Shown piece by piece: positions 58,251-63,453 of a stretch of 64,000 bases of DNA. The stretch comes from an uncultured Erysipelotrichaceae bacterium. Lineage in GTDB: Bacteria > Bacillota_I > Bacilli_A > RFN20 > CAG-826. The DNA is taken from positions 62,001 through 126,000 of the forward strand of contig CADAIJ010000004.1 in assembly GCA_902787955.1 (NCBI GenBank), written 5' to 3'. Both the position numbers and the translations under genes were made by a program. How positions within the stretch are numbered: position 1 is the first letter of the stretch; each line of letters starts with the position of its first letter. Below the pieces are notes generated by a model that saw only the letters and a program-made list of their open reading frames with translations, was not told the origin of the DNA and did no database searches.

Positions 58251-59657
58251 ATGAAATTTAAAGGCTTCCTTTGTCCAATATTTTCCTTACCAAATGAATA
58301 TGGTAATGGTGACTTCGGGAAAGAAGCCTTTTTCTTTGTTGATATTTTAAAAAAGTATCATTTTACAGCGTGGCAGCTTCTTCCATTAAATCCTATTTCT
58401 TATGGGAATTCACCATATCAGCCATTCTCTTCCTATGCTTTTGAAGAAATATATATAGATATTGAAGATTTCCAAAAGAGGGGACTTCTTATAGGTTTTT
58501 CGTTAGAAGAATACAAATTCAATGAAGAAAGAATTAACTATAATAAATCTAAAGAAGTAAGACACACAATCTATAAATACGCTTTTAAAACTTATGTTGA
58601 ACAAAATGGTTTTGATGAGCTTGATAAATTCTTAAAAAAGAATAAGCACATTAAAGAATTCGCTATCTTTATGGCTTTTAAAGATAAGAATAATCAATTA
58701 CCTTTTAATAAATGGGAAGATACTAATTACGATGATGAATTCTCTTATTTTTATTATTATCACGCCTTCTTACAAATGTTTTTATTAAAGCAATATTTAA
58801 AACTTAAAAAATATGCAAATCAAAACGGTATTAAATTAATCGGAGATATTCCATTTTATGTTGGACTAGATAGCAGTGATGTTTATTTTAATAAAAAGTA
58901 TTTCTTACTTAATAAAGATAACACTGCTAAATATATAGCTGGAGTAGCGCCAGATTATTTCTCTAAAACCGGACAAAGGTGGGGGAATCCAATCTATAAC
59001 TTTAGAGCTTTAAAAGAAGATAATTATTCTTTCTTAATCGACCGCATTTTATATTCTTCTAAGATGTATGACATCATTCGTCTCGACCACTTTAGAGCAT
59101 TCGATTCTTATTATAAAATTAAAGGAAAAGAAGAAACTGCAGAACACGGAAAATGGGTAAAAGGCCCAGGAAGTGCCTTCTTTTATGAACTTTATAAACA
59201 AAAACCAAATCTTAAACTTATCGCTGAAGACTTAGGTGATGTCACCCCAAGTGTCTTTAAATTAAGAGATAAATTCAATCTTCCTGGAATGAATATTTTA
59301 GAGTTTAACCTTATTGCAATCATAAATAATTGGGTTAGCTATAAACCTAACACCATCACATATATTGGTACCCATGATAATGACACTTTGGTGGGCTACT
59401 TTAATTCTTTAAATGAAAATGATCAAAACCTCATTCTTTCTTATCTAAAAACTGATAAAGATAATGTTTATAAAGCAATTATTAAGTATTTATTCAATAA
59501 TTATCGTTATCCAATTGTCTCAATTACCGATGTTTTATACTTGCCTAGTGAAAATAGAATTAACTACCCATCAACTTTAAATGAAGCAAATTGGTCGCTA
59601 AAACTAAAAGATTTTAATATACTTATTAAGAACTTAGAGGAACTAAACGATGATTAA
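58251..59657 (+). CDS. malQ: 4-alpha-glucanotransferase
   Basis: A 468-residue GH77 enzyme without extra domains: FLCPIFSLPNEYGNGDFG at the start, IIRLDHFRAFD (nucleophile), KLIAEDLGD (acid/base) and YIGTHDNDTLVGY. It transfers maltodextrin chains and releases glucose in the cytoplasm, so it is the second MalQ in the window after the HAD fusion at 4600. It follows an endonuclease gene with zero spacing and overlaps rimO by 8 nt (ATGATTAA). It lies outside the main glucan locus. Confidence 0.93.
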   Translation: MKFKGFLCPIFSLPNEYGNGDFGKEAFFFVDILKKYHFTAWQLLPLNPISYGNSPYQPFSSYAFEEIYIDIEDFQKRGLLIGFSLEEYKFNEERINYNKSKEVRHTIYKYAFKTYVEQNGFDELDKFLKKNKHIKEFAIFMAFKDKNNQLPFNKWEDTNYDDEFSYFYYYHAFLQMFLLKQYLKLKKYANQNGIKLIGDIPFYVGLDSSDVYFNKKYFLLNKDNTAKYIAGVAPDYFSKTGQRWGNPIYNFRALKEDNYSFLIDRILYSSKMYDIIRLDHFRAFDSYYKIKGKEETAEHGKWVKGPGSAFFYELYKQKPNLKLIAEDLGDVTPSVFKLRDKFNLPGMNILEFNLIAIINNWVSYKPNTITYIGTHDNDTLVGYFNSLNENDQNLILSYLKTDKDNVYKAIIKYLFNNYRYPIVSITDVLYLPSENRINYPSTLNEANWSLKLKDFNILIKNLEELNDD

Positions 59658-60915
59658 AGTAGGAATGATATCGATGGTTTTAGGTATGCTTAAAAGAAGC
59701 GATAATATTGAACTTGTTAACACTATTGAAGAAAGTGATGTAGTTATCATTAATACATGTGGCTTTATCGAAGCTAGTAAACAAGAATCAATTGAAAATA
59801 TTTTAGATGTTGTTTCGCAAAATAAAAAAGTTATCGCTATTGGTTGTTTACTCGAAAGATATTTAGATGAACTTAAATCCTCCATTCCGGAAGTTGCCTT
59901 ATGGGTAAAGATTAAAGATTACTCTACCTTAAACGAAAAGATTGAAGAATTATTTAATAAAGAAGTTAAGATTGAAAAAATTAATCCATTTGTTAGATTA
60001 CTAGCCACCCCTCCATATATGGCGTATCTTCGTATCTCAGAAGGTTGTAATAACTGCTGCACTTACTGTGCTATTCCATTAATTAGAGGTAAGTTCCGTT
60101 CGAGAAGTAAAGAAGATATCTTAAAAGAAGCCCATCTTTTAGCGGCCTCTAACATAAAAGAGTTAGTAATTATTTCCCAAGACACAACTAGATATGGAAG
60201 TGATTTATCTAATGGTGAGAATATCGTTGATTTACTCTCCACATTATTAGAAATTAAAGAATTTACTTCGATTAGATTACTCTATCTTTATCCAGATGAA
60301 ATCACTGATGATTTAATTGATTTAATCGCTAAGAACCCGGTTATTTCACCTTATTTTGATATTCCTTTTCAGCATTCTTCTAACCCAATTTTAAAAGCAA
60401 TGAATCGACGTGGAACTAGAGAAGAATATGAAGCGTTAATTGATAAAATTAGAACAAAGATTCCTCATGCTATATTAAGAACTACTTATATTGTTGGTTT
60501 CCCAGGCGAAACCGATGATGACTTTGTTAACTTAGTAGATTTCACCCGCAAAATGAAATTCGATCATATGGGTGCATTTAAATATAGTAGGGAAGATGGT
60601 ACTAAAGCATACGATATGCCAAACCAAATTCCTGAACCTTTAAAAGCGGGTCGCTTAAATAAAATTATGGATGTTCAAAAGAAGATATCTTATGAAAAGA
60701 ATAAGGAACATATTGGAGAAGTCATGGAAGGTATTGTTATTGGCTATAACGATAAAGCTCTTCAATATAGCTTAAGAAGTTACTGGAACGCTCCTGATGA
60801 TATCGATGGCAATATTTTCTTTAAGAGTGACCATGAATTAAAAATTGGTGAAGATGTTAAAGTAAAAATTACATCCGCTTTTATTTATGACCTATATGGT
60901 GAATTAGTTGAATAA
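59650..60915 (+). CDS. rimO: RimO-type radical SAM methylthiotransferase lacking the first Fe-S cysteine loop
   Basis: A 421-residue MiaB/RimO-family protein. The radical SAM cluster is EGCNNCCTYCAIP, followed by IRGKFRSRS. TRAM-like C-terminus and RSYWNAPDDIDG are RimO-like (target: Asp of ribosomal protein S12). The N-terminal auxiliary cluster normally needs three Cys: one in LGCxKNxxDxE, one in NTCGF and one in GCL. Here NTCGF and GCL are present, but the protein runs MIKVGMIS-MVLGML, skipping the 10-11 residues holding the first Cys. The start ATG overlaps the malQ stop by 8 nt. Activity is therefore uncertain. Confidence 0.85.
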   Translation: MIKVGMISMVLGMLKRSDNIELVNTIEESDVVIINTCGFIEASKQESIENILDVVSQNKKVIAIGCLLERYLDELKSSIPEVALWVKIKDYSTLNEKIEELFNKEVKIEKINPFVRLLATPPYMAYLRISEGCNNCCTYCAIPLIRGKFRSRSKEDILKEAHLLAASNIKELVIISQDTTRYGSDLSNGENIVDLLSTLLEIKEFTSIRLLYLYPDEITDDLIDLIAKNPVISPYFDIPFQHSSNPILKAMNRRGTREEYEALIDKIRTKIPHAILRTTYIVGFPGETDDDFVNLVDFTRKMKFDHMGAFKYSREDGTKAYDMPNQIPEPLKAGRLNKIMDVQKKISYEKNKEHIGEVMEGIVIGYNDKALQYSLRSYWNAPDDIDGNIFFKSDHELKIGEDVKVKITSAFIYDLYGELVE

Positions 60916-60962: not shown

Positions 60963-61036
60963 GCCTCCATAGTTAAGTGGTATAACGGATCCATGGTAAG
61001 GATTAATTCGTAGTTCGATTCTGCGTGGAGGCACCA
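60963..61036 (+). tRNA. tRNA-Thr (anticodon GGT)
   Basis: Acceptor GCCTCCA pairs with TGGAGGC. The anticodon stem GATCC/GGATT (one G-U) encloses ATGGTAA, and the T-arm has GTTCGATTC. Discriminator A and CCA are encoded. It marks the boundary between the core gene block and the accessory segment. Confidence 0.92.
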
Positions 61037-61133: not shown

Positions 61134-62078
61134 ATGATTAGAGTAGCCATTAAAGATGATTTAGCTGCAGTAAATGATTTATTTAAAGAAATGCTTTTTT
61201 CTATTACCGCAAATCCTAATCAATGTGGCTATACTGATAATTATTTAGAAAAATTTGTATCTAATAGTGGAGATATTATTTTTTTAGATGTAGAAGATAA
61301 TGAAATTGTAGGCTTTATATCGGTTGAACTATATAGAAATCCTGAGGAATATATTTACATTGATGATTTTTGTGTTTCAAAAAAATATAGAAATAAAGGT
61401 ATTGGAAAGTCTTTATTTTTTGAATCTCTAAATTACGCAATAAAAAACAATATTGAAACTATATATTTGCATGTAGAAAAAAATAATACCCCAGCTTTAT
61501 CTTTTTATAAAAGTTTTTGTTTTGATATTATTGAAGAAGCTGATAATAGACTTAAACTTTGTTTAAAATTACCTAAATTAACAAAATATATAGTTAAAAA
61601 CAATAATTATATTTGCCTTAAATTATTAGGAAAAGGAAAAGGTGGATATACATATAAAGCTATTGGTAATAACAATAATTTTGTAGCCTTAAAACTGATT
61701 CATCATGAGCCTTGTGATTATTATACTTTTGGAAATAAATTTGCATCGGAAATTAATGATTATAAGACATTAACTCAAATCGGAATTCCAATGCCAAGGT
61801 TAATTGATTCAGATGAAAAACAAGAGATAATTATTAAAGAATTAATTGATGGACCTACTATTTCTGAAATGCTAAGCCAAAATATAGATATTACAATATT
61901 TCTTAAACAGGTTAAAGATATAGCGTCATTACTTAAAAGTAATGACTTGAACATAGATTACTATCCAACTAACTTTATGATTAAAAATAATCAATTGTTA
62001 TATGTAGATTATGAATGCAATAACTATATGGATGAATGGAGTTTTGACTCTTGGGGCATAAACTACTGGATAAAATAG
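61134..62078 (+). CDS. GNAT acetyltransferase / kinase-like fusion protein
   Basis: A 314-residue protein. Residues 1-148 are a GNAT domain (FCVSKKYRNKGIGKSL is motif A, the acetyl-CoA loop). From about 155 there is a small kinase fold: KLLGKGKGGYTYKA (Gly-rich loop), FVALKLIHHE (Lys), and INIDYYPTNF-like catalytic loop DYYPTN with Asp and Asn, then LYVDYECN as DFG-like Asp. Order and pairing recall AAC(6')-APH(2'') bifunctional aminoglycoside enzymes, but the kinase part is much shorter and the N-lobe is reduced. A resistance or self-protection role is speculative. Shine-Dalgarno AGGAA; unusually AT-rich. Confidence 0.7.
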   Translation: MIRVAIKDDLAAVNDLFKEMLFSITANPNQCGYTDNYLEKFVSNSGDIIFLDVEDNEIVGFISVELYRNPEEYIYIDDFCVSKKYRNKGIGKSLFFESLNYAIKNNIETIYLHVEKNNTPALSFYKSFCFDIIEEADNRLKLCLKLPKLTKYIVKNNNYICLKLLGKGKGGYTYKAIGNNNNFVALKLIHHEPCDYYTFGNKFASEINDYKTLTQIGIPMPRLIDSDEKQEIIIKELIDGPTISEMLSQNIDITIFLKQVKDIASLLKSNDLNIDYYPTNFMIKNNQLLYVDYECNNYMDEWSFDSWGINYWIK

Positions 62079-62106
62079 ATCAAAATTTAGGAATCGAGTG
62101 GAAATC

Positions 62107-62127
62107 CTCGGTAATTTAATTGCCGAG
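62107..62127 (+). other. hairpin in the leader of the AAC(3)-like gene
   Basis: CTCGGTAA (62107-62114) pairs with TTGCCGAG (62120-62127) with one G-U pair. It is not followed by a T tract, so it is more likely a leader structure than a terminator. Confidence 0.4.
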
Positions 62128-62174
62128 TAGTTCACTAAGATAAAAAATATATTGTTTGAAAGGAAAGGATAGAT

Positions 62175-62957
62175 ATGCGGGCATTAAGTAAGAAAGAATT
62201 ATCAGATGATTTGAGAAGACTCGGACTGGAAAAAGGCGATGTTGTAATGGTCCATACATCTTTAAAAAAGATTGGATATGTATGTGGAGGCGCTCAAACA
62301 GTAATTGAAGCCTTGATAGAGGTAGTTGGCCCTGAGGGTACAATTATGATGCCAACGCAGTCTTGGAAAAATCTAGATCCTGAGACAGGTGTGCATTGGG
62401 ATGCAGATGAATCTGAATGGAATAAAATAAGAGAGAATTGGCCTGCATATGATAGAAATTTGACACCAACAAATACAATGGGCGCAGTTGCTGAGATGTT
62501 TCGAAAGTGGCCAGGAAGCATTAGAACAAATCATCCGGCGAGATCCGTTTGTGCATGGGGAAAACACGCAGAGTATCTTACGGAAGAACATACATTATCA
62601 AATATCTTTGGCGAGGGGTCACCAATAGCGAAACTATATGAGTTGGATGCGAAAGTGCTACTACTTGGAGTTGGATATGATAAAAATACCTCAATTCATC
62701 TAGCTGATGTTCGTGCGAACTATCCAGGGAAACATGAATGCATAGAACATAGCGCGATACTAGAAAATGGTGTTAGAGTATGGAAGGAATACAGTACGTT
62801 ATTTGTTGATGGAGAGGATTTCGAGAAAATAGGCGAAGCATTTGAAAAAGCCTATAAACCAGCTATTGGAAAAATTGGCGAGGCTGATGCGAGATTGATG
62901 AAGCAGAAAGACATCGTTGATTTTTCTGTATTATGGATTGAAAAGAATCGACGGTAA
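62175..62957 (+). CDS. AAC(3)-family aminoglycoside N-acetyltransferase
   Basis: A 260-residue protein of the antibiotic N-acetyltransferase family (AAC(3), YokD, FrbF). Matches are VVMVHTSLKKIGYVCGG, GPEGTIMMPTQS, TPTNTMGAVAEMFRKWPGSI and RTNHPARSVCAWGKHAEYL, covering the acetyl-CoA site and the His/Glu region. Family members acetylate the 3-amino group of 2-deoxystreptamine antibiotics, though some act on other amines. Base and codon use (GCG, GGG, CGA, TTG common) differs from the preceding 60 kb, so transfer is likely. Shine-Dalgarno AAAGGAAAGG. No resistance phenotype can be concluded from sequence. Confidence 0.87.
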   Translation: MRALSKKELSDDLRRLGLEKGDVVMVHTSLKKIGYVCGGAQTVIEALIEVVGPEGTIMMPTQSWKNLDPETGVHWDADESEWNKIRENWPAYDRNLTPTNTMGAVAEMFRKWPGSIRTNHPARSVCAWGKHAEYLTEEHTLSNIFGEGSPIAKLYELDAKVLLLGVGYDKNTSIHLADVRANYPGKHECIEHSAILENGVRVWKEYSTLFVDGEDFEKIGEAFEKAYKPAIGKIGEADARLMKQKDIVDFSVLWIEKNRR

Positions 62958-63267: not shown

Positions 63268-63280
63268 AGTGCCCATAAAG

Positions 63281-63441
63281 ATTGATAGAGGCGCAATTGC
63301 GATCAGTAATCAGTGGAGGGGACACCCAGAGAAACTGATGAAAGGCAAAATTGCCGAAACATTATAAGGGCACTTGTAATGGTTGGGCTATGAGAGAATA
63401 TCTCAATAGACTCCTACAACTTGTAGAGGCGCTATCGATGA
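63281..63441 (+). ncRNA. lysine riboswitch (L-box)
   Basis: The conserved lysine-riboswitch blocks appear in order: AGAGGCGC, GATCAGTAATCAGTGGAGGG, GAAACTGATGAAAGGC, TTGCCGAAAC, GGTTGGGCTATGAGAGAA and GTAGAGGCGCTATC. P1 is ATTGATAG (63281-63288) with CTATCGAT (63432-63439), one G-U pair. The downstream gene is an amino-acid-binding lipoprotein, which fits lysine uptake under lysine feedback. Confidence 0.92.
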
Positions 63442-63453
63442 CATTCCGAAATT

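Follow-up and report, generated by a model that had tools for sequence, protein, structure and literature searches.

In the aminoglycoside bifunctional enzyme AAC(6′)-Ie/APH(2″)-Ia, an N-terminal GNAT acetyltransferase and a C-terminal kinase share one chain. A GNAT also adjoins a phosphotransferase in the aadE-sat4-aphA-3 cluster, there as separate genes (PMC9032879 and PMC8614714, in the excerpts available). According to the accessible part of Kannan et al. 2007 (PMC1821047), choline and aminoglycoside kinases bind their substrates with the help of an insert between subdomains VIa and VIb and have ∼100 residues after the DFG motif, and RIO and KdoK kinases have a segment between β3 and αC. 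For the Antibiotic_NAT family, to which the AAC(3) enzymes belong, the available text of PMC8956665 gives a motif that ends in Glu and lists three proteins (FrbF, YokD, and BA2930) as inactive on aminoglycosides.

The window (the whole stretch of 64,000 nucleotides analyzed here, from an uncultured Erysipelotrichaceae bacterium) contains a GNAT–kinase fusion gene next to an AAC(3)-like gene. A tRNA-Thr gene (anticodon GGT; positions 60963..61036, plus strand; ARAGORN and Rfam tRNA) lies 3′ of rimO and is followed, after 97 bases, by an ORF of 314 aa with an ATG start (61134..62078, plus strand). Residues ∼1–135 (61134..61540, plus strand) form a GNAT domain (PF00583) with the acetyl-CoA motif RNKGIG, and residues ∼148–314 (61575..62078, plus strand) a minimal RIO/Bud32-like kinase domain, recognized from alignments, a predicted model, and a fold search. 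A gap of 96 bases (62079..62174, plus strand), which contains an RNA hairpin stable by its folding energy (−21.1 kcal/mol, z −3.1; without a clear T-run), separates this ORF from one for an AAC(3)-like protein of the Antibiotic_NAT family (PF02522; 260 aa, ATG start; 62175..62957, plus strand). The preliminary description of this DNA had proposed a GNAT–kinase fusion encoded by a single ORF, and the coordinates, the PF00583 match, and the residues and fold of the kinase agree on this point. The minimal kinase is the chief finding of the locus. In the host genome, the GNAT–kinase architecture occurs in a single intact copy. A second copy, of the long type (L166, 5155–6526), is split between two frames at the glycine-rich loop, which reflects either gene inactivation or an error in the assembly.

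The GNAT domain matched Acetyltransf_1 (PF00583) over residues 33–127 with 69.2 bits (cut-off 20.7), which, together with the R-x-x-G-x-G/A motif (RNKGIG), places it in the GNAT superfamily. Its best NCBIfam match was Sat4 (∼35% identity over 93 residues), with 49 bits well under the cut-off of 380, and its best PDB match was a putative streptothricin acetyltransferase (51 bits); the rimI model (48.6 bits; cut-off 86.4) was also among the best GNAT matches. Judging by its invariant catalytic residues and its predicted fold, the C-terminal part of the fusion is a kinase. It stayed below all curated cut-offs, with 16.6 bits for Pkinase (cut-off 31.7) and ∼25–26 bits for the Bud32 model TIGR03724 (cut-off 125). 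The catalytic set is complete: by analogy with known kinases, Lys187 would be the β3 lysine, Glu206 the αC glutamate, Asp275 the catalytic aspartate, followed by Asn280, and Asp292 the metal-binding aspartate. The sequence HHEPC occupies residues 190–194.

Modeled alone, the kinase domain reached a mean pLDDT of 92.3. The HHEPC segment was the least certain part of the model (block mean 67), as expected of a flexible loop. Known kinases matched the model with Z values of 13–15; the top PDB match was RIO1 of A. fulgidus (Z 14.9 over 158 residues, 2.8 Å), and human PRPK (Bud32) scored Z 13.6, with eukaryotic protein kinases ranking between the two, an order that carries no meaning in itself. Foldseek also returned a kinase fold, and the HipA and CAK families were absent from the 50 structural matches listed, an absence that carries no weight against either. 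The structure prediction that the preliminary description had called for therefore supports a kinase fold, of the RIO/Bud32-like kind. In the model, helix 107–122 (αE) runs straight into the catalytic loop (Asp128) without a VIa–VIb insert, and only 22 residues follow the metal-binding aspartate (Asp145 of 167), so the kinase is not of the APH build. The full-length model of 314 residues was weak in its GNAT half (pLDDT mostly 37–78), and the arrangement of the domains is not readable from it. The likeness to AAC(6′)-APH(2″) suggested earlier therefore holds for the order of the domains, but not for the domains themselves: the AAC(6′)-Ie model (cut-off 340) gave the GNAT a score of 16.7 bits, and the mini-kinase, in a protein of 314 residues in total, lacks the APH insert and C-terminal subdomain. 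An aminoglycoside bifunctional enzyme was ruled out on these grounds, i.e., by the domain models and the kinase anatomy. Bud32/PRPK (KEOPS; TIGR03724) and RIO are closer, with a like fold and a short C-lobe, and the window kinase shares the β3–αC segment that PMC1821047, in the part available, describes for RIO and KdoK. It differs from both in an invariant HHExC-YY-F motif, in the 22 residues past the metal-binding aspartate, and in its fusions to GNATs, and it falls below the Bud32 cut-off. Moreover, the kinase family described here is accessory and bacterial, and no domain of the Kae1 type (Kae1/TsaD being the KEOPS partner) was present among the fused or adjacent families listed.

That the second gene belongs to the AAC(3) family, as had been stated, was confirmed by PF02522 (287.5 bits; cut-off 25). 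Against NCBIfam AAC_3 (NF033082), however, the protein scored 227.2 bits, less than the cut-off of 270, and its catalytic motif reads TSIHLAD, with Asp in place of Glu. It consequently lies outside the functional AAC(3) enzymes as delimited by this cut-off and the motif T-x-x-H-x-A-E. The same Asp was found in gut relatives, namely, in L165, L104, L121, and 28 of the 29 loci L228–L256; the motif pattern found no match in L152 or L256. The closest PDB entries were 3e4f/3ijw (“aminoglycoside N3-acetyltransferase”; 254 bits), YokD of B. subtilis (213 bits), and FrbF (209 bits), with the remaining AAC(3) entries far lower (≤137 bits). We take 3e4f/3ijw to be BA2930 of Bacillus anthracis. BA2930, YokD, and FrbF, the closest solved relatives, have the catalytic Glu at the position of the Asp found in the window protein and in these relatives from the gut. 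A true aminoglycoside-resistance pair, consisting of a short AAC–APH fusion and an AAC(3), would explain the AAC(6′)-APH(2″) domain order and fit the AAC(3) family name as well as the adjacency of such genes in L104 and L121. It is nevertheless highly improbable: among the aminoglycoside-enzyme models shown, none exceeded its cut-off; BA2930, YokD, and FrbF had no aminoglycoside activity (PMC8956665, available text); the catalytic Glu is replaced; and the kinase is not of APH build. An antibiotic-modifying pair, as first proposed, is on the same grounds not supported for aminoglycosides, and kinase and AAC(3) recur together in one other lineage only (L104/L121). The alternative offered with it, a modifier of another amine-bearing molecule, is favored over the resistance pair. 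The substrate of the kinase is probably not a classical aminoglycoside.

Two genes of differing base composition directly after a tRNA gene had been reported, and this was fully corroborated. The fusion ORF (24.8% GC) and the AAC(3)-like ORF (40.2%) mark the lowest and the highest value, respectively, among the 38 window ORFs of at least 200 aa (mean 34.0%, SD 3.3%; whole window 33.7%). Within the genus, rimO was present in 16 of 24 genomes, and in 9 of 10 sister stretches, it was followed by tRNA-Thr; the tenth contig stops there. Past the tRNA, all eight readable sisters carry other genes, which differ from the window pair, and neither the fusion nor the AAC(3)-like gene was found behind tRNA-Thr in any of the eight, so that the proposed comparison with sister genomes showed the pair not to be conserved at this place. 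In the order, three of 279 genomes contained an AAC(3)-like gene, and none of these was another genome of the genus. A repeat of the tRNA end was absent within 15.6 kb (up to three mismatches allowed), and no integrase was noticed by eye among the listed ORFs of L153. What had been called an island is thus confirmed as a chromosomal site of fixed position and varying content, but not as an element with an integrase or a duplicated tRNA end. The fusion gene was most likely acquired horizontally.

Whether the two genes belong together is a separate matter. Somewhat probably, and compatible with any other reading, they are unrelated passengers at a tRNA-Thr hot spot, as suggested by their divergent GC content, by the 96-base gap with its hairpin, and by the other genes in every sister readable past tRNA-Thr. 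In the family of genome G611, 33 of 397 genomes contained the kinase, 61 PF02522, and 9 both; among these nine, the genes were adjacent only in G611 itself, the center of the survey and chosen for this adjacency, and lay on different contigs in the remaining eight. Speaking for a connection, the AAC(3)-like gene lies 1 base upstream of the kinase in L104 (Butyrivibrio) and in L121. The kinases of these two loci are close sisters and were counted as one lineage. That the AAC(3)-like gene shares the function of the fusion appears rather doubtful.

Two further observations concern the flanks. Downstream of both genes lies a lysine riboswitch (63278–63442; Rfam RF00168, 84 bits), followed by an amino-acid ABC transporter (SBP_bac_3 from 63505; ∼42% GC). 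Upstream, the window rimO (59650–60915) is missing 11 residues near its N-terminus, around GCAKNLVDSE of the sisters. The missing stretch includes a Cys conserved in all four aligned sisters, which is presumably an iron–sulfur ligand; the gap reflects a deletion, decay, or an assembly error.

A search of the order with the whole fusion protein gave matches at E 1e-20 in 47 of 279 genomes. All of these ran through the kinase part, either in stand-alone frames of ∼180 codons or in longer ones, many of them with GNATs, that reached 494 codons. With an alignment of 18 kinase members (A1) as query, at least 574 confirmed loci were obtained from GTDB genomes; the best-scoring 80 of these were retained. 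The hosts are gut and rumen bacteria, mostly Bacillota (Clostridia and Erysipelotrichia), and include, outside Bacillota, the cultured Treponema porcinum, Succinivibrio dextrinosolvens, and Bifidobacterium cuniculi. The distribution is patchy. In the kinase tree, most deep branches were weak and the window row was among the longest; the Bifidobacterium kinase paired with that of a Clostridia MAG (SH-aLRT 96). Constraint reaches across phyla: 35 columns were invariant in 81 kinase sequences, and the Gly-rich loop, β3 Lys, αC Glu, catalytic Asp, Asn, and metal-binding Asp were invariant or nearly so. An unusual invariant motif, HHExC-YY-F (H43 H44 E45 x C47 x Y49 Y50 x F52), lies between β3 and αC, and C148 and N149 behind the metal-binding Asp, as well as W160, G161, and Y164 near the C-terminus, are also invariant.

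No Pfam or NCBIfam match to the kinase members reached its cut-off, where a cut-off was printed. Pfam RIO1 was matched weakly by 13 of 18 members (best 3e-4), and no HipA family was listed for the 18-member alignment. By these comparisons, the kinase is a family without a Pfam or NCBIfam model of its own. In the one annotated record examined, it is labeled “hypothetical protein”, and the open-licence literature searched contained, in titles and the opening lines of abstracts, nothing on the kinase family or on a fusion of a GNAT with a mini-kinase.

Two other identities were considered for the family and rejected. Two IMG/VR scans gave one and two matches, and three unannotated fecal phage records carry the kinase, of 10 phage records matching; with so few matches, it is not typical of phages. 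PADLOC matches to an anti-phage kinase (PD-T4-6, best 8e-10) were generic kinase matches. Within the genus, a distant relative of ∼190–220 aa recurs (L003, L006–L011, L018, and L019), often between MazG-like and Prs-like genes (named by eye). In the copies read, Asn takes the place of the catalytic Asp, and several have another residue in place of the metal-binding Asp as well, so that this relative looks like a pseudokinase. A count of 30 of 392 genomes takes in weaker matches (E ∼1e-16) to this pseudokinase-like family.

The main rival to a small-molecule substrate is a protein target of the Bud32, RIO, or HipA kind. The kinase would then act on a fixed cellular target, for example, a translation component, and the GNAT would be a RimI-like protein modifier. 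This is possible, albeit rather unlikely. It would accommodate the weak match of all 18 scanned members to Bud32 models (best 9.5e-10), the presence of RIO1 and PRPK in the fold list, the rank of rimI among the best GNAT matches, and the HipA-like gene found directly upstream of the kinase in three loci (L048, L049, and L180); a single substrate conserved across phyla fits a universal protein, too. However, the Bud32 scores, from 26 bits to the 35.5 bits of the L113 kinase against TIGR03724, are far under the cut-off of 125; the kinase is missing from most relatives (present in 47/279 and 33/397 genomes), which argues against a core translation factor; and exporter, SnoaL, and AAC(3)-like partners are not protein modifiers. 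The kinases of L048 and L049 are 99% identical, as are the HipA-like proteins of L049 and L180, and the genome of L049 belongs to a different family of the order from those of L048 and L180. Such identity suggests that a two-gene unit was transferred recently, or that bins were contaminated.

The kinase was joined to GNATs repeatedly and on either side. Pfam-supported GNAT domains precede it in the window, in L068 and L034 (∼456 aa), and, with another type of GNAT, in L050, and follow it in L113 and L117. Fusions to an ArAE_1/FUSC exporter domain (L056), to TetR (L089), and to SnoaL (L122) were found once each. Among the best 80 GTDB loci, six had a Pfam-supported partner domain, which was a GNAT in three, and 74 had none. 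Long frames without such support (L060, L100, L106, L114–L116, L123, L124, and others) were excluded from the fusions; some resemble read-through of GC-rich sequence, and L123 resembles L117 by eye, without a Pfam match. Regulation of the fused enzyme or regulator by the kinase domain, through phosphorylation or as an ATP-driven switch, could account for such varied partners on both sides, but is unlikely given that most copies stand alone (the 74 of 80 loci) and that the active-site loop is invariant although the partner folds differ.

No conserved operon partner was found across the 80 loci. Adjacent genes vary widely, and many stand-alone copies lie beside housekeeping genes. In a first set, GNATs made up 10 of 81 adjacent ORFs compared with 6 of 148 distant ones (p 0.02), in a second, 2 of 64 (p = 0.10 for both sets pooled). 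These tallies rest on a longest-ORF caller, spurious ORFs included; the distant control was a random 148 of 460 ORFs, and the second set did not include the window locus (L175). The signal of the first set was not repeated in the second and was dropped, so only the fusions are taken as evidence. A MATE exporter is encoded 12 bases upstream of the kinase on plasmid pTS1 of Treponema saccharophilum. In L066 (by eye), and probably also in L168, L169, and L201, the kinase lies between shikimate dehydrogenase-like and chorismate synthase-like genes; the second neighbor set contained two more chorismate synthases and two shikimate dehydrogenases.

The explanation preferred here, put forward tentatively, is that the fusion is a horizontally acquired GNAT joined to a minimal RIO/Bud32-type kinase for the two-headed detoxification or modification of a small molecule. 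The GNAT would acetylate an amine of this molecule, and the kinase would phosphorylate a hydroxyl of that molecule, or of a related one, with the γ-phosphate of ATP; the AAC(3)-like neighbor would be a further acyltransferase, with or without the same substrate. That 35 columns, including the HHExC-YY-F loop, are invariant while the partners vary suggests that the kinase has one conserved substrate, and a small molecule would best unify the acetyltransferase, exporter, SnoaL, and TetR partners, which bind or move small molecules. This explanation is supported by the invariance of catalytic residues and motif across 81 sequences, the predicted fold, the fusions, the GC outliers, and the at least 574 relatives, as well as by AAC(3) upstream in L104/L121, MATE in pTS1, and the ∼99% identical two-gene unit. 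More doubtful is the wider proposal that the minimal kinase (∼165 residues) is a mobile catalytic module directed at one conserved small molecule, and hence a new class of small-molecule kinase, serving in defense against an as yet unrecognized gut or rumen compound without the substrate lobe of APH; evolution would then have joined it, on either side, to acetyltransferases, exporters, and sensors. Several observations weaken a small-molecule substrate in general. Known small-molecule kinases grip their substrates with an insert and a C-terminal subdomain, neither of which is present in this kinase, and the families nearest to it, RIO and Bud32, work with proteins. Furthermore, GNAT adjacency is not clearly enriched, with most copies alone and many by housekeeping genes, and the TetR, SnoaL, and exporter fusions are one instance each.

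For the annotation of such loci, the window illustrates that the labels “AAC(3)” and “AAC-APH-like” can wrongly imply aminoglycoside resistance. For the family, it brings to light a kinase that is present at a minimum of 574 loci of gut and rumen bacteria, cultured strains included, yet is matched by no Pfam or NCBIfam model over its printed cut-off. The combination of an invariant active-site loop with interchangeable partners makes the question of its substrate directly testable with a protein of 180 residues. If it is indeed a small-molecule kinase, a RIO/Bud32-type core alone would suffice for phosphorylation of this kind.
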